From NCBI GenBank assembly GCA_947474705.1, contig CANJJS010000005.1:1-64000 (forward strand): a stretch of DNA of 64,000 nucleotides. Reading direction: 5' to 3'. Within the stretch, counting starts at the first letter, position 1; every line of letters starts with the position of its first letter. This DNA is from Acetobacteraceae bacterium. GTDB lineage: Bacteria; Pseudomonadota; Alphaproteobacteria; Acetobacterales; Acetobacteraceae. The notes beneath the pieces were generated by a model. It saw nothing but the letters and a program-made list of their open reading frames with translations. It was not told the DNA's origin and searched no databases. Positions 41,078 to 57,169 of the stretch are shown here, in pieces. The position numbers and the translations under genes are program-made.

Positions 41078-41167
41078 GGAGAGATGGCCGAGTGGCTTAA
41101 GGCGCACGCTTGGAAAGCGTGTGTGCGTGAAAGCGTACCCAGGGTTCGAATCCCTGTCTCTCCGCCA
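41078..41167 (+). tRNA. tRNA-Ser (anticodon GGA)
   Basis: The sequence folds as a class II tRNA: acceptor stem GGAGAGA / TCTCTCC, D-arm, anticodon stem CACGC / GCGTG with loop TTGGAAA (anticodon GGA at 41112-41114), a long variable arm, T-arm with GGTTCGAATCC, discriminator G and encoded CCA at 41165-41167. It reads UCC and UCU codons. Mobile-element debris begins just downstream, making this a likely integration hotspot. Confidence 0.97.
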
Positions 41168-43763: not shown

Positions 43764-44207
43764 GCGCGGTCGAGCACTGGCGGATGCCCAGGCCGGTCCA
43801 GCGTATGAAGGGCGCGGCGGGCGGAACGTCTGCCTTGTTGCGACCCTTTCCGCCGGTTCGCCAGCATCGCGCGGATGCCGTGGTCGATTGACCGGCGGTG
43901 ATCCAGGCAATCCTCCGGTCATCCGGAAGCGTCCGGCCGTCGATTCCGCGTGGGATGATCGACAGGTTCGGACACCCCGCGGATGGGCAACGAGGCAATA
44001 AGCCCGCATGGCACCTGGCTGGTCCTGACGCGGCTTTGCGTGACTCTGGCCAAAGTGGCGCGCCCACAGCCATAATCCGTTCGTGCATATCGTGCGCGAA
44101 TCGAGGATTTTTCAACGACAGATATTTCGCGGAGTCCTGGCCGGGCAATCCTCGTCGAACGCAACATGCGGCATTTCCGTGTTCAGAACAAGATATTTTA
44201 CTTAGGA
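43764..44207. other. Non-coding or decayed region
   Basis: No gene is recognisable here on either strand. The open frames are short, with translations unlike any family I know. Together with the binding-protein stump to its right it looks like decayed accessory DNA. Confidence 0.4.
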
Positions 44208-44513
44208 CTATCCTTTCGTCACGTTCCCGAACACCGGCACCGGGCCCTTCAGGATCGCGTTCATCTTCTCCCGCCAGTCCCCCGGCGGGACGAACCGGCC
44301 CAGAGGAAGATGCGTGACGATACTGAAACAGCGCTGGCGCCACTCACGCTCGATTCCCGTTAGGACCGCCGAATCGCCGGTATCGATCCAGGTCGAACAG
44401 AGTTCCTCGATCCGCGCGTTCGCGGGCCGACCGTAAAATGCCTTTGGCCCGTCGCCACGGATATCTGGCCTGACCTTGAAGCCGCCGCTGAGGTGTTGAA
44501 CCGCGCTCCGGTA
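44208..44513 (-). pseudogene. C-terminal stump of an oligopeptide-type ABC binding protein
   Basis: About 101 codons on the minus strand end at a TAG at 44208 and are closed upstream by a stop at 44514. They read GPKAFYGRPANARIEELCSTW, ERQRCFSIVTHLPLGRFV and ILKGPVPVFGNV across the frame, which matches the end of SBP family 5 (DppA-like) proteins where the strand order is FWGWP..KIEEL..PYIPLGQF..GPVPVFWNV. The rest of the gene is absent, so this is a deletion remnant. Confidence 0.65.
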
Positions 44514-44968
44514 TTATCGCCGACAGCTCGTTTTGGGTGCACGGCCACCGAGAACAGCCTACCGAACTTTCCGGCCGGGTTGGGAGACCGTCCCGGGGAC
44601 GGAACCAGACGATACCGAGCGAAATCCATGCGGCCGGCCGGCGATTTCGATCGATACCCGGAAGAAACCTGTCGGCGGCGCGCGGTCTCGGGCGGGCTCC
44701 ATCGCGTCCAGAGTGGCATGACAGGATCTCGTTCCAACCCACCATCTGGGCCATTTGGACGCGCGCGATAATAGCGGCCCGAAAACGCCGGCTCGCGGTG
44801 CGCGGATTTTCCGTCCCGATCGGGAGGCCACCCAACATGCGATGCTTCCATCGATCGGATCGCGGATTGCTTCAAGCGTTTCGCAATCGGGCGGTGACGC
44901 GCCCGATTGACCGGCGGACCGGCGGTCTGTCAGGATCGGACGGCAACGAACAACCGTCGCGGAGACCG
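44514..44968. other. Non-coding region upstream of the partner-switch genes
   Basis: A long plus-strand frame enters from 44537 and joins the RsbW-like gene, but its N-terminal 144 residues are Arg/Pro-rich with no family likeness, so it is treated as non-coding. The promoter for the RsbW-STAS pair is expected here, but I cannot point to clear elements. Confidence 0.4.
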
Positions 44969-45388
44969 ATGGACATCCAGGGCACACTACTGATCGATAA
45001 CGAACCGTACGAGGTCGGGCGGGCGGCGGAGTGGCTCGATGCCACGATCGGAGAGGCGGACTATCCTCCCCGGTTGCTGGCCGTCATGCAGGTCGCGCTG
45101 GAAGAAGTGCTGACCAACATCATGTTGCACGGCTATGCCGATATCGACGACCACAAAATCGAACTGACGCTGGAGGCCGATACCGAAGCCGTGACACTGC
45201 GTTTCGTCGATGACGGCATCCCCTTCGATCCGACCGAACGTCCGTTGCCCGAGCCGATGGAAACGGACAACGACGAGGCCGGCGGGCTCGGGATTCTGTT
45301 TGTCCGGCGCCTGATGGACGAGGTCGCGCACGAACGTGCGGGCGGGCAGAATCATTTGACACTCCGCAAATTCGTCGCGGCGCATTGA
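44969..45388 (+). CDS. RsbW/SpoIIAB-like anti-sigma serine kinase
   Basis: This 139-residue GHKL ATPase of the HATPase_c_2 family, as in partner switches, binds a sigma factor or effector and phosphorylates its STAS antagonist. The N-box EEVLTNIMLHGY (45-56), G1 box DDGIPFDP (81-88) and G2 box GGLGILFVRRLMD (105-117) are present. The ATG at 44969 has GGAG eight bases upstream; the longer open frame is not credible. It lies 18 bases before the STAS gene, with the phosphatase of the set 8 kb downstream beyond the T6SS spike genes. Confidence 0.92.
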   Translation: MDIQGTLLIDNEPYEVGRAAEWLDATIGEADYPPRLLAVMQVALEEVLTNIMLHGYADIDDHKIELTLEADTEAVTLRFVDDGIPFDPTERPLPEPMETDNDEAGGLGILFVRRLMDEVAHERAGGQNHLTLRKFVAAH

Positions 45389-45406
45389 CTCGATCGGGGC
45401 AGCCAA

Positions 45407-45739
45407 ATGGATATTGTTGAAACACGAGAAGGCGAGACCGCGATCGTCGCGCTGGTGGGGGCACTGGACACATCGTCCTCGCCCGCCCTGACGGCGAAAG
45501 CCTTCGCGCTGTGCGGCACCGGCATTCGCGCGCTGGTCGTCGATCTCGACCGGGTCCCGCATCTGACAAGCGCCGGATTTCGCGCGTTCATCGCCATCAA
45601 ACGGCGTTGCGCCACTGGCGCGATCCAGATGACGCTGTGCGGATGCAACGATCTGGTGCGAGAGATGTTCGAGATCGGCGGCATGCTGGGAACGTTCCGC
45701 ATCGTGGCGGATCGGGAGGCGGCACTCCAGGCGGACTGA
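45407..45739 (+). CDS. STAS-domain anti-anti-sigma factor (SpoIIAA/RsbV-like)
   Basis: This 110-residue STAS protein has the normal switch loop region VPHLTSAGFRAF, in which Ser55 takes the place of the phosphorylated serine in the usual D-S-S-G-L. It is the expected substrate of the adjacent RsbW-like kinase and, when dephosphorylated, would free its target. It ends about 110 bases before the vgrG start, so the switch genes may share a transcript with the T6SS module (inference). Confidence 0.92.
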   Translation: MDIVETREGETAIVALVGALDTSSSPALTAKAFALCGTGIRALVVDLDRVPHLTSAGFRAFIAIKRRCATGAIQMTLCGCNDLVREMFEIGGMLGTFRIVADREAALQAD

Positions 45740-45848
45740 ATTTCGCCGGCGCGCGCGTTACCGTTTGACATGTTACCGGCCTGACCGCAGGCTCGAAACC
45801 GCCGCGACATCGAAACTGTTACGGCCACCGAAGGGGAGATAGAGACCC

Positions 45849-48230
45849 CTGTCGCAGCACACGCAAACCGCGCCACGGTTCCTGACCATGGACTCCTCGC
45901 TCGACCCGGAACGGCTCGCGATCACGCGGCTGGAGGGCGAGGACCGGCTGTCCGCCTGTTTTCTGTATCGTGTCGATGCGGTGACGGAAGAGGCGGACCC
46001 TGCGGTCGACGCGCTTTTGGGCATGCCGGTGACGCTGTGGATGCACGACAACGACCCGGACCGGCGGCGGCCCATCCATGGCCATGTCCGCCGCATCGTG
46101 GGACAGGGCCGCGACCACCACGGGCATCGCCGGTTTCAGATGGAGGTCGTGCCGCGGCTGTGGTTCCTGAGTTGCACCTCGGATTGCCGGATTTTTCAAA
46201 ATCAGAGCATTCCGGACATTCTGAGCACGGTGTTCCAGGATCAGGACCTGGTCAATGTGGAATTCCGTGTCGTGCGCGGCGATTACAAGCCGGTCGAATA
46301 TTGCGTGCAGTATCAGGAATCGGCGCTGGATTTCGTTTCCCGGCTGATGGAACATCTCGGGTTATTTTACTGGCACGAGCACACCGCCAACAAACACACG
46401 CTGGTGATTGGCGATCGTAACGCGGCCACCGGGGTTTGCGTGCCCGCGACGGTCTCCGTCTCGCGGAGCAAGGATTTCGACTCGTTGCGCGAGATGAACG
46501 TCGATTGCTCGTTCCGGCCGGGCAAATGGACGTTGAACGATTACGACTTCGAATCGCCGACACGGCAGTTGCTGGTCGATACGCCGACGACATTGGATGT
46601 GCCGCGGATTGTTAAGCACGAGATGTACGAATATCCCGGGTATTATAACGACCGGGAAACCGGGCGGCTGTTGACGCGGACGCGCGTGGAACTGGAAGAA
46701 TCCCGTCACCGCCGCGTCTTCGGCACCGGGTATTGTTCCGGATTCGATCCGGGACGCCAGGTCACGATCACCGCGGAGCCGGACGGGCGCGGCGTCCGCT
46801 ATTTGCTCACCGAGGTACGTCATCGCGCCTTCGGTCCAGGCCTCGATACCAGCGATGTGGTGGATGTGGAATATTCGAACGAATATGTGGCGATTCCGGC
46901 GAATGTTCCGTTCCGGCCGGAGCGGGTGACTCCCCGGCCGTATATGCGGGGGGCGCAGACGGCGACGGTGACGGGACCCTCGGGCGAGGCGATTCATTGC
47001 GATCAGTACGGCCGGGTCCATGTGCAGTTCCATTGGGACCGGCAGGGGAAGCGGGACGATCGGAGTTCGTGCTGGATCCGGGTGGCACAGGCGCGGGCGG
47101 GATCGCATTACGGCGACCAGGTGTTGCCGCATGTAGGCCACAAGTTGGTGGTTTCGTTTTTGGAAGGCGATCCGGACCGGCCGTTGATCACGGGCAACGT
47201 GCCGAACGCGTTGACGATGCCGCCGATGTCGTTGCCCGCCGACAAACATAAGACGATCCAGAGGGATCATGGCGATAACAAGATAGTGATGCATGGGAAG
47301 GCGGGCGAGGAATCGCTGAGCGTGATGTCGCCGCGAGTTGTGAATGTTTTCGCGTCGGGCAAGAGCGCGCGGCCCCTGTCGGCCGATACGGTCACGTTCG
47401 AGTCCGATCCAAAGGCTGGCGGCGGTTCATCCGGCGCACCAGGCGCGATCAGCGCCGCAATTCCGACTTTTCTCGATCCTGTTGGTCTCGGTGAATTACG
47501 CGGCCAATGGTTCGGAACCGTGCAGAGCGACATCGGGGCGTCGGTGCCTCCGAGCGTGGGTCAGCCTGCCACACAAGGTCAGTATGGAAAACAAGACGGA
47601 TCGACAGCCGGGTCGTATTTGAACTGGGGCAGCGAGGGGAAGATCAACTGCCTAGTGATGGATAATAACAATTTATGGGTCTATAAAAATTCATACGGCT
47701 GGATCAACGGAGATTCAGTTACGCAAATTAACGGAAATAGCACGACCGTGATAGGGGGCACTGCATATGGAGGAACCAACACCTCCGTGATCAGTAAGTC
47801 GGAAGTATGGGGAAAAGCCGATTCCCTGGTTCATGGCGACAGTTCGTCGGTCGTGAACGGCAAAAGCGATTCCTGGGTTTTGAAAGACAGCAGTTCGACG
47901 GTAAACCTGAACTCGGTCTCTTATATTGGCGGCTCCTCGACTTCGACAGTCATTGGTCCCAATCTATCGGATACCTATGGGCCGACTGTCACGCATGCCT
48001 GGGGGGGCGCGGCCGCATTCGTGGCGATGCACAATGTTACGTTCAGCTATGGCTTAACCGTATCTGTATTCGGGGGCGTTAATATTTCCAGCACCTCCGG
48101 CTTTAATATTCAGACGTCCGGGGGAACAGTAACCAACACTGGTCTCGAGATCTACACCAACCCAGGGATGAAAATATCCACAGTTTCCGCCGCGAACATA
48201 AAAACAGCCATACTGCATTTGATTCTTTAA
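45849..48230 (+). CDS. vgrG: Type VI secretion spike protein VgrG, with extended beta-rich tail
   Basis: VgrG trimers form the puncturing tip of the T6SS and carry effectors. The gp27-like part spans about 1-370 (YQESALDFVSRLMEHLGLFYW) and the gp5-like OB fold about 370-470 (QYGRVHVQFHWDR..SSCWIRVAQ). A tail of about 260 residues, rich in Ser, Thr, Asn and Gly, resembles a beta-helix and lies in AT-richer DNA. The first ATG is at 45888, but the family N-terminus SQHTQTAPRFL lies upstream in frame after a CTG at 45849 with GGGGAG nine bases before it; a stop at 45840 bars any earlier start. I give the CTG start tentatively. Confidence 0.9.
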   Translation: MSQHTQTAPRFLTMDSSLDPERLAITRLEGEDRLSACFLYRVDAVTEEADPAVDALLGMPVTLWMHDNDPDRRRPIHGHVRRIVGQGRDHHGHRRFQMEVVPRLWFLSCTSDCRIFQNQSIPDILSTVFQDQDLVNVEFRVVRGDYKPVEYCVQYQESALDFVSRLMEHLGLFYWHEHTANKHTLVIGDRNAATGVCVPATVSVSRSKDFDSLREMNVDCSFRPGKWTLNDYDFESPTRQLLVDTPTTLDVPRIVKHEMYEYPGYYNDRETGRLLTRTRVELEESRHRRVFGTGYCSGFDPGRQVTITAEPDGRGVRYLLTEVRHRAFGPGLDTSDVVDVEYSNEYVAIPANVPFRPERVTPRPYMRGAQTATVTGPSGEAIHCDQYGRVHVQFHWDRQGKRDDRSSCWIRVAQARAGSHYGDQVLPHVGHKLVVSFLEGDPDRPLITGNVPNALTMPPMSLPADKHKTIQRDHGDNKIVMHGKAGEESLSVMSPRVVNVFASGKSARPLSADTVTFESDPKAGGGSSGAPGAISAAIPTFLDPVGLGELRGQWFGTVQSDIGASVPPSVGQPATQGQYGKQDGSTAGSYLNWGSEGKINCLVMDNNNLWVYKNSYGWINGDSVTQINGNSTTVIGGTAYGGTNTSVISKSEVWGKADSLVHGDSSSVVNGKSDSWVLKDSSSTVNLNSVSYIGGSSTSTVIGPNLSDTYGPTVTHAWGGAAAFVAMHNVTFSYGLTVSVFGGVNISSTSGFNIQTSGGTVTNTGLEIYTNPGMKISTVSAANIKTAILHLIL

Positions 48231-48376
48231 AATGTTGAGATGGCGTCGCTCACTCATCAGCCTCGATTCGGTGCCAGTCCGGGCAACGGCCAACGGATCC
48301 TACGCGTACCCGTGTTTTTCTCCGTTCATTCTGGAGACACGCGCGGTCCCCAGTGTGGCAACGATTTGATCGTCTT

Positions 48377-51004
48377 ATGAAAATCATCAAACCTCAAACC
48401 CTCAGCCTCCTCACCCGCCCCTTCGAATTCAAGCGCGAGTTCCGTCTCGGCGTCGCCGTCATCGCCTTCCTTCCCATCGGCCACACCCCCACCCTCCTCC
48501 CCGAAACCGCCATGTGGCCGCTCCTGGGCGAGGAACTGCCGCCCGACCAGCCTCTCGACGCCGTCATTCCCAAAACACGCCCGGAATTCCTGGCCGTGAC
48601 CCAGGCCCATGCGCCGGAAGGCGTCCCCGCGCCTTTGGTACGGACCGGCATTCAACTGGGGTCCGTCATCAAACTGCTGGACGTCTACGGCGACCGCACC
48701 CTCGACCGCCGCGCGGGCGAGATCACGCAGCCCGTGCCATTCCTCGAAACGCCGATGGACTGGGCTCATACGTATGGAGGTCCGGGGTTCGCCGGAAATC
48801 CGGGCGGCAAGGGGTTGACGGAGACGGCGGATGGTTTGGTCGCCGTGCAGAATGTGCTCAATCCGAAGCTTAGCCGCGACGGTGCCCGGGTGCCCGCCAG
48901 TTTTGGGCCGGTCGATCAGACCTGGCCGTCGCGGGCGAAGCTGACGGGGACCTATGACGATAATTGGTTGAAGCAGGATTTTCCGGGGTTCGCGCGCGAC
49001 ATCGACTGGCGTTTTTTCAATGTCGCGCAGCCCGATCAATGGCTGCCGGAACCGCTGACCGGCACCGAAACGTACGCGTTCAAAAATCTTCACCCTCGGC
49101 ACAAGCTGCTGAAGGGACAACTTCCCGGCATCGCCCCGCGGGCGTTTTTGGTGCGAAAGGCCGCGCCGGATGGGTTCGAGGAAGTGCCGCTGACCCTGAC
49201 CACGGTGTGGTTTTTTCCGCACCGCGAGCGGCTCGCGTTGATCCACCACGGTCACGCCCGTTTGGCCGAGGAAGATGGCACCGACATCGCGCGCATCGTG
49301 TTGGGCGCCGATCCGATCGGCGCGCTCCGCCCAAAGGAAGACTTTCACGCGGTCATGGTGAAGCGCGTGGACACCAAGGGCGGCGCGATGCATGCGTTGC
49401 GCGACGCCGATCTGGTCCCGGCGGCGTGGTTGCAACCGGACCCGGCGCTCGCCACGCCGGCCGAGGAGACGTCGGCGCTGAAAATTATCTTTGCGCGTCA
49501 GCGCAAACGCGCGGAGCGGCAGCGGGCGGAGGCGGTGGCGCAGGCGAAAGCCCAGGGGCTGGACCCGGAAGAGTTTGTGGCGCCGCTGCCGCCGGAGGCG
49601 GAGATGCCGACGCTGGAGGAATTGCCCGCTTTCGTCGCGGCCGCGGAGGAAGAAGCCGAGGCGGCGAAAGCCAAGGCGGAAGCCTCGGCGGCGGCGGCGA
49701 AGGCTGAGATGGCGAAGCAGCTCGCCGCCGGTGGGATGTCCGAGGAAGACATCGAAAAGGCATTGAACGCCAAGGCGAAGGGGCCGCCGCGCTTTTCCGC
49801 CGCGGGGATGCGGGCGGAGATGGAACAACAGATCGCGGCGATGCGGGTGCTCGGGGTTTTGACGTTCGCGCTGGAGGCACAGTTGGCGCGGCCGGAGCTG
49901 GCGGAACAATGGCTGAAGGCGGAGGCGGCGGTGCGCGACGGTTACCGCCTGACCGCGCAGCACCAGGACCCGGCGGATGGTTCGTCCGAGGAACGTTCGG
50001 CGGAAATCCGGCGGCTGGTGGCGGGCGATACGGCGGCGGCGCGGGCCTTGTACGATTTGCATGGCGCGGATTTGTCCGGACTCGATCTGAACGGGATCGA
50101 TTTGTCGGGTGTGTGTCTGGATGGCGCGAATTTGGCGGGCACGTCGTTTATCGGGGCCAATTTGACCAACGCGGTGCTGGCGCATGCGCGGATGGCCGGG
50201 TGCGTGTTCGACAACGCGGTTCTGGATGGCGCCAATCTGGGAAAATCCGATCTGACCGGTGCGTCGTTGCGGGCGGCGGCGATGAAGAAGGCGATACTGG
50301 CGGGGGCGGACCTGACCGATGCCTCGCTGGCGGGGGCGGATCTGGAGGAAGCGGATATTTCCGAAACGATCCTGCTTCGCGCCGATTTGACCGGTGTCCA
50401 GGCGCGGAATCTGTTGGCGATGAAATTGTCGTTGCGCGGGTTGAAGGCGCGCGGGATCGTGCTGTCGAAGGCGAAATTCCTCGAATGCGATTTGCAGGGC
50501 GCGGATTTGTCGGGCGCCGATCTGGAGCAGGCGGTGTTTCTGGAGACGAACCTGTCGGGCATCCGGCTGATCCGGGCGAAGATGCGGAAGACGGTGTTTG
50601 TCAGCGGCTCGTCGTTGCTGGCGGCGCATATGGCGGGGGCCGATCTGACGGAGGCCAATTTGCGAGAGACCGTCATAACCGGGGCGAATTTGAACAGCGC
50701 GGTGCTGGCGGGGGCGGATTTGTCAGGCGCGAGTCTCGCCAACGCGGTGCTGACCTTCGTGAACGCGACGGGCTGCCGGATGGTCGCCGCCAATCTGTCG
50801 CGCGCCGATCTGCGTCTCGGCAATTTGTCTGGGGCGGACATGGCGCGCGCCGATCTGCGCGGGGCGAATCTGACGGGCATGTGTGTTTACGAGGCCAATT
50901 TGGCGCGCGCGCGGCTGGACGAGGAAACGCGGCGGGGCGGGATGCTGCGGACGCGCATGCGTTACCAGCCGGTTTATCAGCCGCCCGAGGGAGTCGCGTC
51001 GTGA
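48377..51004 (+). CDS. DUF2169 - coiled-coil - pentapeptide repeat fusion protein (T6SS accessory)
   Basis: This 875-residue protein starts with MKIIKPQTLSLLTRPFEF, the DUF2169 domain (about 1-340) often encoded after vgrG and thought to act as an effector adaptor. An Ala/Glu-rich, probably coiled-coil, region spans about 370-500 (ARQRKRAERQRAE and AAEEEAEAAKAKAEA). A pentapeptide-repeat solenoid (A-D/N-L-S/T-G type) fills about 560-860, giving a right-handed four-sided helix. No catalytic toxin motif is evident. The next gene begins within its stop codon (GTGA). Confidence 0.9.
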   Translation: MKIIKPQTLSLLTRPFEFKREFRLGVAVIAFLPIGHTPTLLPETAMWPLLGEELPPDQPLDAVIPKTRPEFLAVTQAHAPEGVPAPLVRTGIQLGSVIKLLDVYGDRTLDRRAGEITQPVPFLETPMDWAHTYGGPGFAGNPGGKGLTETADGLVAVQNVLNPKLSRDGARVPASFGPVDQTWPSRAKLTGTYDDNWLKQDFPGFARDIDWRFFNVAQPDQWLPEPLTGTETYAFKNLHPRHKLLKGQLPGIAPRAFLVRKAAPDGFEEVPLTLTTVWFFPHRERLALIHHGHARLAEEDGTDIARIVLGADPIGALRPKEDFHAVMVKRVDTKGGAMHALRDADLVPAAWLQPDPALATPAEETSALKIIFARQRKRAERQRAEAVAQAKAQGLDPEEFVAPLPPEAEMPTLEELPAFVAAAEEEAEAAKAKAEASAAAAKAEMAKQLAAGGMSEEDIEKALNAKAKGPPRFSAAGMRAEMEQQIAAMRVLGVLTFALEAQLARPELAEQWLKAEAAVRDGYRLTAQHQDPADGSSEERSAEIRRLVAGDTAAARALYDLHGADLSGLDLNGIDLSGVCLDGANLAGTSFIGANLTNAVLAHARMAGCVFDNAVLDGANLGKSDLTGASLRAAAMKKAILAGADLTDASLAGADLEEADISETILLRADLTGVQARNLLAMKLSLRGLKARGIVLSKAKFLECDLQGADLSGADLEQAVFLETNLSGIRLIRAKMRKTVFVSGSSLLAAHMAGADLTEANLRETVITGANLNSAVLAGADLSGASLANAVLTFVNATGCRMVAANLSRADLRLGNLSGADMARADLRGANLTGMCVYEANLARARLDEETRRGGMLRTRMRYQPVYQPPEGVAS

Positions 51005-52056
51005 CGGCGGACGAACTCGCGCGCCTGATCGCCGATGGCGAGCATATTTCGAAAATTTCGCTCGCGGGCGCCGATCTGGCCGGGGGCGATTATCTCGGCG
51101 CGATTTTCGACAATGTCGATTTTCGCGGCGCGCGGCTGTCCCGTGCCGTTTTGGCGCAGGCGGTGTTCAACCAGTGCGATTTCACCGGAGCCGATCTGTC
51201 AGGCGCGGATTTGTCCGGTGCCTCGGTCGTCGAATGCGCGATGGCCGGGGCGGTGCTGGCGGAGACGAACGCGGGAAAAGCGAAATTCATCAAATGCGAT
51301 CTGGAAGGCGCGCGGTTCGCGGGGGCGGTTCTGGAACTCGCGACATTCAGTGGGTGCGCGCTGAAGGAGACCGGCTTCGCCGGGGTCGTGTTCCTGCGCG
51401 CGGTCGTGGTGGATTGCGCGACAGAGGGCATCGACCTGACCGGCAGCGCCTGGCGCGGCGCGGCGTTTCTGAACGCCGATCTGCGGGCGGCGCGGCTGGA
51501 GGGCGCGACGTTCTTTCAGACCACGATGGCCGGGGCGAATTTCTCGGGCCGCGCGATGCCCGGCTTCGCGTTTGGCGGCTGCATGTTCGGGGACGCGGAT
51601 TTTTCCGGCTGCGATCTGTCCGGCGCCGATCTGACACAATGTTTGTTCACCGGCGCGAACCTGTCGGGCGCCAACCTGACCGGCGCGAAAATGCCGAGAG
51701 CGGTGTTGATGAAAGCGAATTTGGCGGGCGCGAACCTGACCGGCGCCGATCTGACCAATGCGATCGCCATCGAGGCGCTCGCGGACAACGCCATATTCGT
51801 CAAGGCCAGGCTGTATCAGTTCATCGCCACGAATTTGGCGGCGGAGGGGGCGAACTTCATGGGCGCCGACCTCACCTACGCCGATTTCAGCCACGCGAAC
51901 CTGACCGGAGCCGATCTGCGCGGCGTGACCCTGGAGCGAACGAATTTCCACGCGATCGTGGACAAGGACGCGGCGATCCCCTCGCGCCGGGGCGCCCTGC
52001 CGACCGACAAGGCTCGCCTGCAGGCGGCGGCGTGGCACGAGCAGGCACGCAAATGA
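51001..52056 (+). CDS. Pentapeptide-repeat protein
   Basis: This 351-residue protein is almost wholly pentapeptide repeats such as GADLSGADLSGAS and GANLSGANLTGAK, from about residue 20 to 315. The GTG at 51001 overlaps the stop of the preceding gene, so synthesis is coupled. Its solenoid probably pairs with that of the DUF2169 fusion, for example as a chaperone, cargo sheath or immunity protein (inference). Low-complexity arginine-rich frames opposite it are shadows. Confidence 0.9.
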   Translation: MTADELARLIADGEHISKISLAGADLAGGDYLGAIFDNVDFRGARLSRAVLAQAVFNQCDFTGADLSGADLSGASVVECAMAGAVLAETNAGKAKFIKCDLEGARFAGAVLELATFSGCALKETGFAGVVFLRAVVVDCATEGIDLTGSAWRGAAFLNADLRAARLEGATFFQTTMAGANFSGRAMPGFAFGGCMFGDADFSGCDLSGADLTQCLFTGANLSGANLTGAKMPRAVLMKANLAGANLTGADLTNAIAIEALADNAIFVKARLYQFIATNLAAEGANFMGADLTYADFSHANLTGADLRGVTLERTNFHAIVDKDAAIPSRRGALPTDKARLQAAAWHEQARK

Positions 52057-52087
52057 CGGCATATTCACCGGCGCGGAGACCCATGAC

Positions 52088-52771
52088 ATGACGGCCATTT
52101 CCTTGAACACACCGCTGACCGCGCCGACCGAAAGCCAGTCACGCGAAGGTCCGGACCTGACCCTGGGCGGGGCGGCGGTGCTGCTGACGCGCGACGGGCG
52201 GTCAGCCCGGATCGAACGAGAGGGCCTGGTTCAGGACGCGCGCATCGCCTTCGGCTGTCTGGTTCGGCCGGAACCGGGGGACCGCGTGCTGGTGGATGTC
52301 GCGGACGGAACCGTCTGGGTGCTGTCGGTGCTGGAACGGCCCTCCGGCGCGGCGCCCTGTCTGTGGGCGGAGGGCGATTTGAGTATTGTCGCCGTACGCG
52401 GGGATATTTCACTGATGGCGGGCGGCGCGGCGAACATTGACGCGGGCGGCGCGGCGCGGATCTCGGCGCCCGAAATCGGTTTGCACGCGGGCATCGCCCG
52501 TTTCGTCGTGGACGAATTCCTTCAGGTCGGGCGCAAGATCGCCTGGCATGTCGCGAAAATCCGCTCGGTCGGCGAAATCCTGGAAACCTTCGCGGACCAC
52601 GTGTTGACCCGCGCCAAACGCGGCAGCCGTTACATCGAGGAAACCGACCAGTTGCGCGCGGGCGACATCGACCACCGCGCCGAGGGCACGCTGCAACTGA
52701 ACGCGCGGACCGCGTTCGTGACCGCCGACAAGGTCGTCCGGATGGACGCCGACCAAATTCACATGGGTTGA
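52088..52771 (+). CDS. DUF3540 family protein (T6SS accessory)
   Basis: This 227-residue protein matches DUF3540: an opening OB-like half with GCLVRPEPGDRVLVDVADG and VLSVLER, then a strand-rich half with RISAPEIGLHAG, and a helical end with a beta motif (QLNARTAFVTADKVVRMDADQIHMG). DUF3540 genes occur with VgrG, DUF2169 and PAAR-like genes and may add a beta-helix element to the spike. The function is not established. A GGAG precedes the start by 11 bases. Confidence 0.88.
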   Translation: MTAISLNTPLTAPTESQSREGPDLTLGGAAVLLTRDGRSARIEREGLVQDARIAFGCLVRPEPGDRVLVDVADGTVWVLSVLERPSGAAPCLWAEGDLSIVAVRGDISLMAGGAANIDAGGAARISAPEIGLHAGIARFVVDEFLQVGRKIAWHVAKIRSVGEILETFADHVLTRAKRGSRYIEETDQLRAGDIDHRAEGTLQLNARTAFVTADKVVRMDADQIHMG

Positions 52772-52783
52772 GGACACCGCCGC

Positions 52784-53185
52784 ATGTTCGCGAACACGCA
52801 AATGATGGGCATGGACAACGCGTTTCCGGATGTCTGCCTGACGCCCGCGCCGCCCGCGCCGGCGCCGATTCCGATTCCCTATCCGAACATCGCGATGGGG
52901 CCGACGGCGGTGCCGTCGCAGGTGCATATCCTGTTCATGGCGGCGCCCGCGCATAACATGGCGACGGTCACGCCGATGACGAACGGCGACAATCCGGGCA
53001 TCGCGCTTGGGGTCGCCTCTGGGCTGGTCATGGGGCCATCGCGGCATTTGACCGGGGCGTTCACGGTGCTGGTCGCGGGCATGCCGGCGACGCGGCTGAC
53101 CTCCGCGTCGTTGCAGAACTCCACAAATGCGCCGGGCGTCCGCACCGTCCCCAGCCAGACCAAGGTGCTGTTGCTGGCGACATGA
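52784..53185 (+). CDS. DUF4150 (PAAR-like) spike tip protein
   Basis: This 133-residue protein is in the DUF4150 family, which has a PAAR-like fold that caps VgrG. The family start MFANTQMMGMDNAFPDVCLTP with IPIPYPN, then ATVTPMTNGDNPG and GPSRHLTGAFTVLVAGMPATRL, are clear. No C-terminal toxin extension is present, so the effector must be another protein, perhaps the pentapeptide proteins. It overlaps the response regulator by four bases. Confidence 0.9.
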   Translation: MFANTQMMGMDNAFPDVCLTPAPPAPAPIPIPYPNIAMGPTAVPSQVHILFMAAPAHNMATVTPMTNGDNPGIALGVASGLVMGPSRHLTGAFTVLVAGMPATRLTSASLQNSTNAPGVRTVPSQTKVLLLAT

Positions 53186-54357
53186 CCCCGATCGCCCAGG
53201 CGCGTCTGCTGGTCGCGGACGATAATCCCGACAACCGCGAAGTTTTGATCCGGCGACTGCGGCGGCTCGGCTATACAAGCATCGAAAGCGCGGTGGACGG
53301 GCAGGAGGCGCTGGAGATGAACGCGGCCGCGCCCTTCGATCTGATTCTGCTGGACGTGATGATGCCGCGCAAGAACGGCATCCAGGTACTGGAAACGCTG
53401 AACGCGGAAAAGCGGTTGGAAACCACGCCGGTTATCATGATCTCCGCCGCCACCGAGCTGGACACCGTCGTCCGCTGCCTGGAATTGGGCGCCGAGGATT
53501 ATCTCCCGAAACCCTTCAACCCGGCCCTGCTGAAGGCCCGGTTGGGCGCGGTTCTGGAAAAATACCGGCTGCGCGCGGAGCTGCGGCGGCATTTGGCGCG
53601 GATGGAAACCGAACTGGCGGAGGCCCGCGAGCAGCAACTCAGCATGGTGCCCACGGAATTCCCGGCCATCGGCGGCGCGACGCCGGTCGAGGTCCACGGC
53701 GCGATGCGGCCCGCGCGGGAAGTCGGCGGCGATTTTTACGATGCCTTCGAAATCGTTCCGGGCACGCTGTGCATCGCGGTCGGCGATGTGTCCGGCAAGG
53801 GCATGCCCGCCGCGCTGTTCATGGCGCGCGCCCGGAGCCTGCTGCGCGCCACGGCGCTGCTCATGGCCGGGCATCGCGGCATGGCGCCCATGCCGGACGA
53901 GGTCGCGCGGGCGATGAACGACGAGCTTTGCAAAAACAATCCGTTCTGCAACTTTCTCACTTTGTTCATGGGATTTTTGGACACGGCGAGCGGCGAACTC
54001 CGCTACGTCAACGCCGGTCACGTCCGTCCTTACGTGCTGCCGCGCGGCGGCGCGCCTTACGAACTGGTCAGCCCGCCGGATGTGCCATTGGGTTTCGAGC
54101 CGGAGGCGGTGTTCCGCACGGGCGTTCTGACACTCGGCCCAGGTGACGCGTTGGTGGCGATCAGCGACGGCGTGCACGACATGGAACGGGAAGATGGGAC
54201 GATATTTGGGCGGCCCGCGACGCTGGATTGTCTGGCTGGGGCGGTTGACCGGGGCGCAGCGGCGTTGACGAACCATTTGATGGACGCGGTTTTCGCGTTT
54301 GGCGGCGGGGCGGCGCAGGCGGACGATGTCACGATCCTGGCGGTGCGCCGGGCGTGA
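53182..54357 (+). CDS. Response regulator with RsbU/SpoIIE-like PP2C phosphatase domain
   Basis: This 391-residue protein has a receiver domain (1-125: acidic Asp13/Asp14, phospho-acceptor Asp58 in LILLDVMMP, Lys110 in YLPKPF) and a PP2C-type serine phosphatase (about 175-391: REVGGDFYDAF, GDVSGKGMPAALFMA, NAGHVRPYVL, SDGVHD and DDVTILAVR). Such proteins dephosphorylate STAS antagonists in partner switches, fitting the RsbW-STAS pair at the other end of the module. A convergent kinase is next. ATGA overlap with the PAAR-like gene ties its synthesis to the T6SS spike. Confidence 0.93.
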   Translation: MTPIAQARLLVADDNPDNREVLIRRLRRLGYTSIESAVDGQEALEMNAAAPFDLILLDVMMPRKNGIQVLETLNAEKRLETTPVIMISAATELDTVVRCLELGAEDYLPKPFNPALLKARLGAVLEKYRLRAELRRHLARMETELAEAREQQLSMVPTEFPAIGGATPVEVHGAMRPAREVGGDFYDAFEIVPGTLCIAVGDVSGKGMPAALFMARARSLLRATALLMAGHRGMAPMPDEVARAMNDELCKNNPFCNFLTLFMGFLDTASGELRYVNAGHVRPYVLPRGGAPYELVSPPDVPLGFEPEAVFRTGVLTLGPGDALVAISDGVHDMEREDGTIFGRPATLDCLAGAVDRGAAALTNHLMDAVFAFGGGAAQADDVTILAVRRA

Positions 54358-54366
54358 CCGACACAT

Positions 54367-54391
54367 GGCGGGGACGCGTCGCATCCCCGCC
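54367..54391. terminator. Hairpin between convergent response regulator and histidine kinase genes
   Basis: GGCGGGGA and TCCCCGCC form an eight-pair stem around a nine-base loop, located in the 117-base gap between the two convergent genes. No clear T run follows on either side, so termination is plausible but unproven. Confidence 0.5.
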
Positions 54392-54474
54392 CGTCCAGCG
54401 CCTGTTAACCGCCGGCGGTCATAACGCCGGTCAAGCCGCCCCGCGTCGTCAGGTCCGGGTTCATTTCATTGTCT

Positions 54475-56391
54475 TCAAACAATAATATCTTCGTCGTCCC
54501 GGTCCGCGGAGGCGCTCCGCGCCACGGGCGGGGCCGGCAGTTCGATCGTGAAAATGGACCCGGCGCCCAAAGTGCTGGTCACCGTGACATCGCCGCCCAG
54601 TAACTGGATGAGACTCCGGGTGATCGAGAGGCCGAGACCGGTGCCGCCGTAACGGCGGGTCGTGGACGCATCGGCCTGACGAAACGGTTCGAACAATTTG
54701 CCGATTTGTTCTTCGCTCAAACCGATCCCGGTGTCGGAGACGCTGAAGCGCAACCGCCCCTCCCCCGCCGGATCGACGGTCAGCCGGATCGTGCCTTCAT
54801 GCGTGAATTTCGCGGCGTTGCTGAGCAGGTTCAACAACGACTGCCGCAATTTCGCCGGATCGGTTTCCACTGTTCCGATGGCGGGATCGCACACCGTTTG
54901 CAGCCGGTTCGCGTTGCGCGCGATCATTGGCGCGATCATTTGTTCGACGTCGGAAAGCAACGACGGTACATGCACCGGTTCGATCAGCACCTCCATGCGG
55001 CCCGCTTCGAGTTTCGACAGATCGAGCACGCTGTTGATCAGATCCAGCAAATGATTGCCCGCCATTTCGATCTTTTTCAGATCGGCGACGGTTTGGTCCG
55101 CGCCGCCGTCCTCCGCGTCCTCGCGCAACAACTGACTGTAGCCGATGATGGCGTTCAGCGGCGTGCGCAATTCGTGACTCATGTTGGCCAGGAACATGGA
55201 CTTCACCTGCGTCGCGTGCTCCAGCGCGAGTTGCCGTTCCTTTAGTTCGGTGATGTCGGTGCAGACGGAGACGATGCCGCCGTCGTGGGTTTCGCGTTCG
55301 GCGATGCGCACCCAGCGGTCGCCGAACCGGCATTCCACCGGGCCCGGATCGGCGGCGGCGGGCGCCGCCTCCGTTCGACGCGCGATCCACGCCTCCGCCC
55401 GCGCGTCGCTGGGTCTGACGATCCCCGCCGCCACCGCGGCGCGCAGCAGAACCGGAAACGGCGTGCCCACGTCCAGCGCAACCGGCGTGCCCGCGTACAG
55501 CGCGCGGTAGGTGGCATTGAACAAAACCAGACGCCGATCCGCCCCATACAGCGAAAAACCATCGGAGATCGTTTCGATCGCCTGGGCGATCGTCCGCCGC
55601 TGGTGCTCGGCCGCCTGTTCCAGCCGCGCGCGTTCCAGCAGGCCCTCGCGCAGCATGGCCAAAGCGCGGGCCAGTTCGCCGAACTCGCCGTGGGTTTCGG
55701 CCGGCGCGACGGAGGCGGTATCCCCCGTCCCGATCCGCCGGACTTCCGCCACGAGGCCCCGTAACGGCGCCAGGATCGAGCGCAATGTCAGCGCCGTCAT
55801 TCCGGCGCCGAACAGGATCGCCGAGACCACCGTCGCCAGCGAGACGCGATCCGCCGCCTGCCCGTCGCGTTGCACGGCTTCGTGCGCCGCGCGCTCCCGT
55901 TCCGCCAGCGCCGCTTCCAGCCGGTCGAGGCGTTCGCTGACGGACGCGCCATGGCCGCGCGCTTCGGCGAACAGAATGTTGCCGTCCATGCGCTGGTCGC
56001 CGGTATAGGCCTCGACCGCGCGTCCGGCGATCCGGTCGAAGGCGGCGGCGTCGGCGCGCAGGGCGTTCGCCTCGTCGGGCGCGAAGGCCGCGAGGTCGGC
56101 GAGGCGCCGGTCCAGCCGCTCGCGCGCCGCTTCGACCTGGCGTTCCGATGTCATCAGCAGCGAGACCGAGAGGTCGGCCTGCCAGTAGCGCAGCGCGTCG
56201 AAGGCGGCGCGGGTCTGGCGGACGGTTTCGATCCGGGTCACCGTCGCGGCGGCGTCGCGCGCGGTGTCCGAGGCCTGGCGCAGGACGCTGGTCAGGTAAA
56301 GATTGCTGAGCGCGATGGCGAAAATCAAACTGAAGGCGAGCAGCCGCAGCCGCGCCGCGACCGACAGCCGGGACAAGACCCCGGGCGTCAC
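54475..56391 (-). CDS. Membrane sensor histidine kinase (HAMP-PAS-HisKA-HATPase)
   Basis: This 638-residue inner-membrane kinase has TM1 at about 17-37, a periplasmic helical sensor of about 145 residues, TM2 at about 184-206, HAMP at 207-260, a PAS-like domain at about 270-385, HisKA with His406 ([11 protein letters not shown]) and an ATPase with DTGIGL and GGTGLGLSI. The phospho-partner is probably the adjacent receiver-PP2C protein (inference). The heme protein gene upstream ends 22 bases before it, so both are likely in one transcript and the sensor may read redox or gas state. Confidence 0.93.
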
Positions 56392-56413
56392 CGCGGCGGC
56401 TCCGCCCTTCGCA

Positions 56414-57169
56414 TCATCGCGCGATGGTGATGCTGAGAACGCCGCCGAGATCTCCGGCCTTCGCGCCCTCGCGCGGGTATCCCGTGATGTCGATCGAGCC
56501 TTTAGGCAGGCCGTGGCAGCTCATGCACGACTCGGAATAATATTCCGGGAACAAGATCCGGAACGCCGGGCGCGGGCCGTTGGCGCCGTCGATCGCCAGC
56601 GCCTGGCCTTTCGGCCACGTGGGCGAGAGGAAATGCTCGGCGATGGCGGCGCTCTCCGCGGCGTCGGGCAATGCCTTGCGGTTGCGAATCAAGGGGCGCG
56701 GCGCGGTTTGTTTGACATGCGCTTCGGTGCCGGCACGGCGGGCGAAGGCCTCGTTGACCAGACGCGTGAAGGCGGCCGGGATGAAGGCCTTGAAGCCGGT
56801 GCCCCGGACATTGATGGTCGCCTGGTGCGAGTCGACCGCCTCGACGATCGCCTCCATCTGCCATTTCAACAGACGCGCCTCGCGCGTGGTTTGGTCGCCC
56901 GCCACCGGGTCGCGGCCGGTCGCGGCTTTGTAACCCGCGAGGGTGCGCGCCAGCACCACCTGGCCGGTAAGACCCTTGTCGCCAATGGAGGGATCGTTGA
57001 TCAGCGTCTGGCTCTCGCTGATCACCGCGCGCGCGGCCTGGATCATGTCGGCCAAAGCGCGCGCCGAGGACAGAATGTCGGGCGGCACGGTGTCCGCGCG
57101 GGCGGGCGCGCAGGCCAGCGCCCCGCACAGGATGGCGCGCGCGATCCATCGGCGCGGGAGAGTCGACAT
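56414..57169 (-). CDS. Periplasmic Tll0287-like (DUF3365) c-type heme sensor protein
   Basis: This 251-residue exported protein has an N-terminal signal peptide (residues 1-26, ending in ARA-D). The domain matches the Tll0287-like/DUF3365 family, a PAS-like heme-binding fold with a c-type site Cys215-x-x-Cys218-His219 (SCMSCHG). Such proteins are proposed redox or ligand sensors. Being encoded directly upstream of the kinase, it may pass the periplasmic signal to it (inference). Confidence 0.9.

Follow-up and report, generated by a model that had tools for sequence, protein, structure and literature searches.

We propose that a conserved signalling cassette in the genome of an Acetobacteraceae bacterium brackets an orphan Class III Tvp spike operon of the type VI secretion system (T6SS) and probably controls it, a reading to which we give about an even chance. 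The locus lies in what we call the window, the whole 64,000-nucleotide stretch analysed (contig C5, positions 1-64000; the draft genome has 5.48 Mb and 205 contigs), where genes for an RsbW-like kinase and a STAS protein precede the spike module, and genes for a phosphatase that joins a receiver (REC) to a SpoIIE-type PP2C domain (REC-PP2C), a histidine kinase and a Tll0287-like protein (hereafter heme-Cache) follow it. Partner switching is joined to the T6SS rarely, but more than once, and the joining of this cassette to T6SS genes is known in two differently composed brackets.

Partner-switch genes in T6SS clusters

A plasmid search with the window REC-PP2C returned two matches at or below 1e-40, in Aureimonas and Runella. 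On plasmid pAU20a of Aureimonas sp. AU20, one strand carries, in order, genes for STAS, tssH, hcp, vgrG, a DUF6931 gene, tssA-B-C-C-E-F-G, a methyltransferase gene, a protein-kinase gene and REC-PP2C; past the latter lie convergent genes for a receiver, a hybrid kinase and a heme-Cache protein, and the RsbW gene diverges from that for STAS, beside PAAR, FHA and tssJ-K-L-M. Core T6SS genes here stand where the window's bracket holds the spike module, and a bracket of this kind around a complete T6SS in a distantly related bacterium suggests, by analogy, that the signal may control the weapon.

Searches with the Aureimonas STAS and RsbW proteins led to two further species. The T6SS cluster of Caballeronia sp. 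NK8, which holds a full Tvp-III module, carries at its tssB end genes for two STAS proteins, RsbW and a SpoIIE protein with a Cache-like domain, and that of Rhizobium jaguaris encodes STAS, RsbW and two SpoIIE proteins between tssB and clpV. The grouping that we propose here, a T6SS cluster with an embedded partner switch, has STAS, RsbW and PP2C genes within or next to T6SS genes of unrelated taxa; it contains the window, Aureimonas, Caballeronia and R. jaguaris, and is rare.

These arrangements bear on the main rival reading, in which a ~7.3-kb orphan Tvp-III module landed by chance between the STAS/RsbW pair and the REC-PP2C gene of an existing switch operon; the switch would then keep its own, unrelated target and the spike would be controlled as it is elsewhere. 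We regard such an insertion as possible, if somewhat doubtful, and it was demoted to a rival because the Aureimonas, Caballeronia and R. jaguaris arrangements were found: it predicts neither an Aureimonas bracket that holds different T6SS genes nor switch genes in two further T6SS clusters.

The window RsbW matched 12 plasmid records, among which Caballeronia and Aureimonas were the two best. When 11 of the 12 surroundings were viewed (Deinococcus was left out), these two were in T6SS clusters, and in the remaining nine neither annotation nor tblastn showed a tss gene over 14-36 kb each; with a guessed background of 3%, the probability of finding at least 2 of 11 such contexts in T6SS clusters is roughly 0.04. 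The Aureimonas STAS matched 39 plasmid records (10 viewed: three in T6SS clusters, one in a type III secretion system (T3SS) cluster, six in neither) and its RsbW matched 17 (eight viewed: three, one and four, respectively), and the three tallies overlap. A tblastn check of ten plasmid regions for tss genes left our odds for the readings unchanged.

The signalling cassette and the spike module

All ten genes listed by the first-pass annotation are present in its order and open, as judged from open reading frames, translation, Pfam and NCBIfam (Table 1). Its statement that core T6SS genes are absent here also held: T6SS-cluster proteins from Aureimonas and from this genome, used as tblastn queries, matched no core tss gene in the window.

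The cassette contains the parts of a partner switch of the RsbU/V/W type, an RsbW-type HATPase, a STAS protein with a conserved serine and a SpoIIE-type PP2C. Ser55 of the STAS protein is invariant in all eight aligned sequences, and we take the serine of its TSAG motif to be the usual phosphorylation position. The heme-Cache protein has the Tll0287-type domain with CXXCH that marks the sCache_heme family, and the Cys and His of the motif are invariant in six of six aligned proteins. Close Tll0287-like relatives are found in 6 of 397 family genomes and in 8 of 372 class genomes (this one included), and a further congener with such a protein (G546) was reached through its kinase; there are also 79 plasmid records (67 Sinorhizobium, 10 Rhizobium, 1 Aureimonas and 1 Phyllobacterium).

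The usual gene set encodes heme-Cache, a hybrid kinase with two C-terminal receivers, one free receiver and an output protein. The heme-Cache gene adjoins the kinase gene in all seven family loci (the window, G006, G084, G110, G148, G577 and G546), and because this neighbourhood is conserved across relatives, the stand-alone heme-Cache protein is predicted to be tied to the kinase. A REC-PP2C gene follows in four of the six family loci outside the window, those with long enough contigs, and RsbW and STAS are encoded near it in G006, G084 and G110. The copies vary in state: in G006 RsbW and STAS are fused, with a permease gene between the fusion protein and heme-Cache; in G084 REC-PP2C is broken into two frames; in G110 the cassette lies on two short contigs, with REC-PP2C on the second; and in G148 REC-PP2C stands alone, truncated where the contig stops. 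About 1.4 kb past the G006 cassette (contig C83) lies a gene for a plasmid RepA_C protein, so this cassette may be plasmid-borne. In other alphaproteobacteria the output is a REC-cyclase (G472 and G272 by Pfam, Sinorhizobium by annotation), and in G487 and G302 a REC protein occupies the output place; L085, L189, L194, L195 and L196, with contig ends or divergent genes, were not classed by output. On plasmids of S. meliloti and S. medicae (L174 and L175), stand-alone heme-Cache and receiver genes adjoin an adenylate/guanylate cyclase gene, with a hybrid kinase in L174.

Relative to this set, the window kinase lacks the two C-terminal receivers and the cluster lacks the separate receiver gene, an apparent shortening of the phosphorelay. 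The window reads RsbW-STAS, Tvp module, REC-PP2C, kinase and heme-Cache, without the three receivers. In G084 and G110 the genes run STAS-RsbW-REC-PP2C and converge on those for the free receiver, the kinase and, in G084, heme-Cache. Save for the exchanged places of STAS and RsbW, this matches the window with the module taken out, which favours chance insertion; against this, the G110 RsbW, G110 STAS and G084 STAS are only distantly similar to those of the window (26%, 28% and 28%).

By gene content, the five T6SS genes match a Class III Tvp spike module (VgrG, TvpAB, TvpB, TvpC and PIPY/DUF4150). A DUF2169 protein (TvpA) has a pentapeptide extension and is accompanied by a free pentapeptide protein (TvpB), a DUF3540-type TvpC, a DUF4150/PIPY tip and VgrG, and relatives show the same order; the PIPY protein contains PIPYPN, a stretch kept in homologues. 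In Serratia marcescens, where the Class III Tvp system was defined, it is reported to form a pre-complex and to be required for T6SS firing (PMC13373197), and DUF4150 'PIPY' tips are reported to require a DUF2169 chaperone (PMC11883445). Core T6SS genes of this genome are on contig C24, separate from the window spike module; they encode, by Pfam, Fha, TssJ, K, L and M, TagF, PP2C, a ClpV-like ATPase, TssA, B, C (two), E, F and G, together with Hcp (tblastn) and a VgrG (profile). Therefore, the window spike appears to be an orphan that would be taken up by a machine with its genes elsewhere.

Four-bp overlaps join the TvpAB stop to the TvpB start (GTGA) and the PIPY stop to the REC-PP2C start (ATGA). 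The TvpAB start is taken as the GTG at 48353, with the ATG at 48377 as an alternative. A gap of 148 bp separates STAS from VgrG, and a simple terminator scan of it gave nothing. The ~1.2 kb 5' of RsbW (43764-44968), in which a simple gene caller placed no gene, is a possible regulatory region.

Table 1. Genes of the cassette and the spike module in the window (aa, amino acids)
Feature	Position	Strand	Evidence
RsbW-like serine kinase/anti-regulator (HATPase_c_2)	44969..45388	+	139 aa; PF13581 8.7e-24; homologue alignment
STAS protein (RsbV/SpoIIAA-like)	45407..45739	+	110 aa; PF01740 1.1e-14; TIGR00377 above cut-off
VgrG (TssI), long C-terminal extension	45888..48230	+	780 aa; PF05954, PF04717; TIGR03361 2.5e-141
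TvpAB: DUF2169 chaperone-pentapeptide fusion	48353..51004	+	883 aa; PF09937 1.8e-67, PF00805
TvpB: free pentapeptide-repeat protein	51001..52056	+	351 aa; PF00805 1.2e-62; homologues 39-52%
TvpC: DUF3540	52088..52771	+	227 aa; PF12059 6.9e-49
PIPY (DUF4150/Tox-PAAR-like) spike tip	52784..53185	+	133 aa; PF13665 1.6e-38
REC-SpoIIE (PP2C) phosphatase	53182..54357	+	391 aa; PF00072, PF07228
Histidine kinase, HAMP-PAS_7-HisKA-HATPase	54475..56391	-	638 aa
Tll0287-like stand-alone protein (sCache_heme, DUF3365)	56414..57169	-	251 aa; PF11845 5.3e-17; CMSCH (CXXCH)

A second Tvp module of this genome, on the 7.3-kb contig C165, has a TvpAB 59% identical to that of the window and no recognised VgrG, and a gene beside it gives a transposase match that is weak and below the cut-off. 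In the window module we recognised no effector gene. We rejected the idea that this marks a broken module, since it is ordinary for the gene after DUF4150 to lie on the opposite strand (9 of 13 called loci, 8 of 12 distinct). The tRNA-Ser at 41078 was likewise rejected as an integration site, as no second copy of its 3' end (at least 15 bases) occurs in the window.

Several properties of the module accord with chance insertion. Tvp modules are scattered, with three in G104; DUF3540 is rare, being found in 5 of 150 sampled family genomes, this one included, and in the class matching in 7 of 385 genomes and exceeding the cut-off in 3; the G+C content of VgrG is lower (0.584); and both the frequent opposite-strand neighbour of DUF4150 and the weakly transposase-like neighbour of the C165 module point the same way. 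On the other side, no long flanking repeats were seen, and a 23-nucleotide, 83%-alike pair (45307 and 53886) is probably chance.

Surveys of related neighbourhoods

A wider set of observations weighs against control of the spike by the cassette. None of 87 Tvp stretches (86 distinct loci, L023 being the same as L154) contained RsbW or STAS within up to 10 kb on each side of DUF4150; 75 of these stretches had all five families, 58 were at least 18 kb and 29 were shorter, and many came from close relatives such as Variovorax. This result is weaker than it looks because a scan of this span does not reach a switch at the opposite end of a cluster; for example, ~17 kb separates the Caballeronia switch from DUF3540. 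In four Pseudacidovorax Tvp loci, PP2C matches that were weak and partial (13-14 bits) went unreported by refined profiles with a 20-bit floor. The gap in the Tvp scan is partly covered by a second survey: TssB was found in 77 of 150 family genomes, and RsbW, STAS and SpoIIE were found in none of 40 TssB loci (39 genomes; up to 40 kb each, ±20 kb; 1.49 Mb; defined by TssB alone), in a scan that detected its positive controls, though some of these had helped to build the profiles.

In the phylum, 45 RsbW-like matches were found in 200 genomes, one being the window's own, and none of the next 20 loci (12 with a full 20 kb) was clearly in a T6SS cluster; one had a marginal DotU near a contig end, and the 20 include this genome's two other RsbW-like loci. 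Also among them is genome G872, which encodes RsbW, STAS, REC, a hybrid kinase and REC-PP2C together, with no tss genes. The G006 cassette has no tss gene in 16 kb, its TssB and DUF3540 genes being on C127 and C30, and G110 has the cassette and no TssB match in a genome 84% complete. Among plasmids, TssC is present in 435 records (1e-30) and the switch is known in three plasmids, which marks T6SS-linked switches as rare. Two Pantoea, Chimaeribacter and Sphingobium have related switches next to exopolysaccharide or cellulose-type genes, and STAS and RsbW-like genes lie inside a T3SS cluster, next to sctR, on a Nitratidesulfovibrio vulgaris plasmid (L202).

Sequence relationships add to this side. 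The window RsbW is 35% identical to that of Aureimonas and 42% to that of G006, and the window STAS 31% and 35%, so neither is closer to Aureimonas. A kinase tree places the window and Aureimonas in a group of eight, the order within which was not resolved. By receiver helix 1, REC-PP2C resembles the stand-alone receiver, but unrelated REC-PP2C proteins do too, and we draw no kinase pairing from it. No sigma factor or other RsbW target was recognised among the cluster genes scanned.

The REC-PP2C proteins of Aureimonas and the window are 49% identical, and in a tree the former lies outside four heme-Cache-linked Acetobacteraceae copies (forks 85/88 and 86/94, moderate support). On this tree, the bracket either is ancestral and was lost in relatives or formed twice.

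The first-pass annotation had named conservation of the switch genes without T6SS genes in relatives as grounds for calling the link chance, and this was found in part, in T6SS-free cassette neighbourhoods and in G110. That relatives keep the cassette without T6SS genes beside it, together with the Tvp and TssB surveys, favours chance insertion when read alone. The proposed link between switch and spike nevertheless keeps some ground: kinase, REC-PP2C, STAS and RsbW occur together in G006, G084 and G110, the bracket recurs in Aureimonas, and the clusters of R. jaguaris and Caballeronia sp. NK8 hold a switch.

It is also conceivable that only expression is shared, with REC-PP2C expressed with the spike operon, the switch governing exopolysaccharide or a general stress sigma factor, and spike expression informing the switch. 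The ATGA overlap and the exopolysaccharide or cellulose-type neighbours of related switches fit this alternative, as does Pseudomonas aeruginosa, in which HptB, acting via the REC-PP2C protein PA3346, controls biofilm and T3SS with T6SS genes unaffected (PMC2904497). We consider it improbable, and the presence of STAS and RsbW inside the T6SS clusters of Aureimonas and R. jaguaris speaks against it.

A proposed signalling chain and its relation to known systems

If the cassette controls the spike, we infer the following chain. The periplasmic heme-Cache protein would report nitric oxide (NO) or redox state to the kinase, which would phosphorylate the REC-PP2C receiver, in the window directly, because the intermediate receivers are missing. 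REC-PP2C would take the phosphate off STAS, dephosphorylated STAS would bind RsbW, and whatever RsbW holds back, possibly an unlinked sigma factor or other activator, would be freed. The VgrG-Tvp-PIPY spike would then be made, presumably from a co-transcribed operon, and would be loaded onto the core T6SS, whose genes lie on another contig. Should the ATGA overlap reflect coupled translation, production of the spike would bring REC-PP2C with it, and the loop would be self-feeding.

The periplasmic redox or gas signal of the first-pass annotation rests on family membership: according to a preprint, the tested member of the signalling type binds NO and the tested stand-alone member looked redox-like (PMC12889525). 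That preprint suggests redox roles for stand-alone sCache_heme (DUF3365/Tll0287) proteins and, for members coupled to signalling modules, NO sensing. The window protein shares the Cache-type domain with CXXCH; unlike this division, it and its relatives are stand-alone yet encoded beside a kinase.

The S. marcescens Db10 module VgrG1-TvpAB-TvpB-TvpC-Paar1 has the same gene set as the window. In the available text no signalling genes are named in it and an effector-immunity pair goes with VgrG1 (PMC13373197), whereas the window module is bracketed by a signalling cassette and has no recognised effector gene. The P. aeruginosa chain of HptB, PA3346 and PA3347 (STAS) is alike in that a phosphorelay-controlled REC-PP2C acts on an anti-anti-sigma-like protein; the portion available reports T6SS genes unaffected in an hptB mutant and mentions no heme-Cache protein (PMC2904497). 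The RsbU-RsbV-RsbW/sigma-B system of Bacillus subtilis, described in the same paper (PMC2904497), has the PP2C, STAS protein and RsbW-type kinase in common with the window, but the window cluster has no recognised sigma factor and its phosphatase carries a two-component receiver.

Among the papers found by searches on the T6SS and partner switching, none, judged by title and abstract opening, describes a partner switch that controls a T6SS or lies within its gene cluster. Known routes of T6SS control are Gac/Rsm, sigma-54, Ser/Thr kinase-Fha-PppA and ECF-kinase. We offer as a speculation, on balance an unlikely one, that partner switching is a recurrent, undescribed form of T6SS control, in which a T6SS operon running from STAS to REC-PP2C would be a closed unit driven by a heme-Cache two-component system and RsbW would restrain a T6SS-dedicated activator or component in place of a general sigma factor.

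If control by the cassette is borne out, a switch that brackets weapon genes would couple T6SS deployment to a signal, NO or redox, read by heme in the periplasm, and stand-alone heme-Cache proteins, with their suggested redox roles, would gain a kinase partner. Switch control of the T6SS is testable by simple gene deletion in a named strain, Aureimonas sp. AU20.

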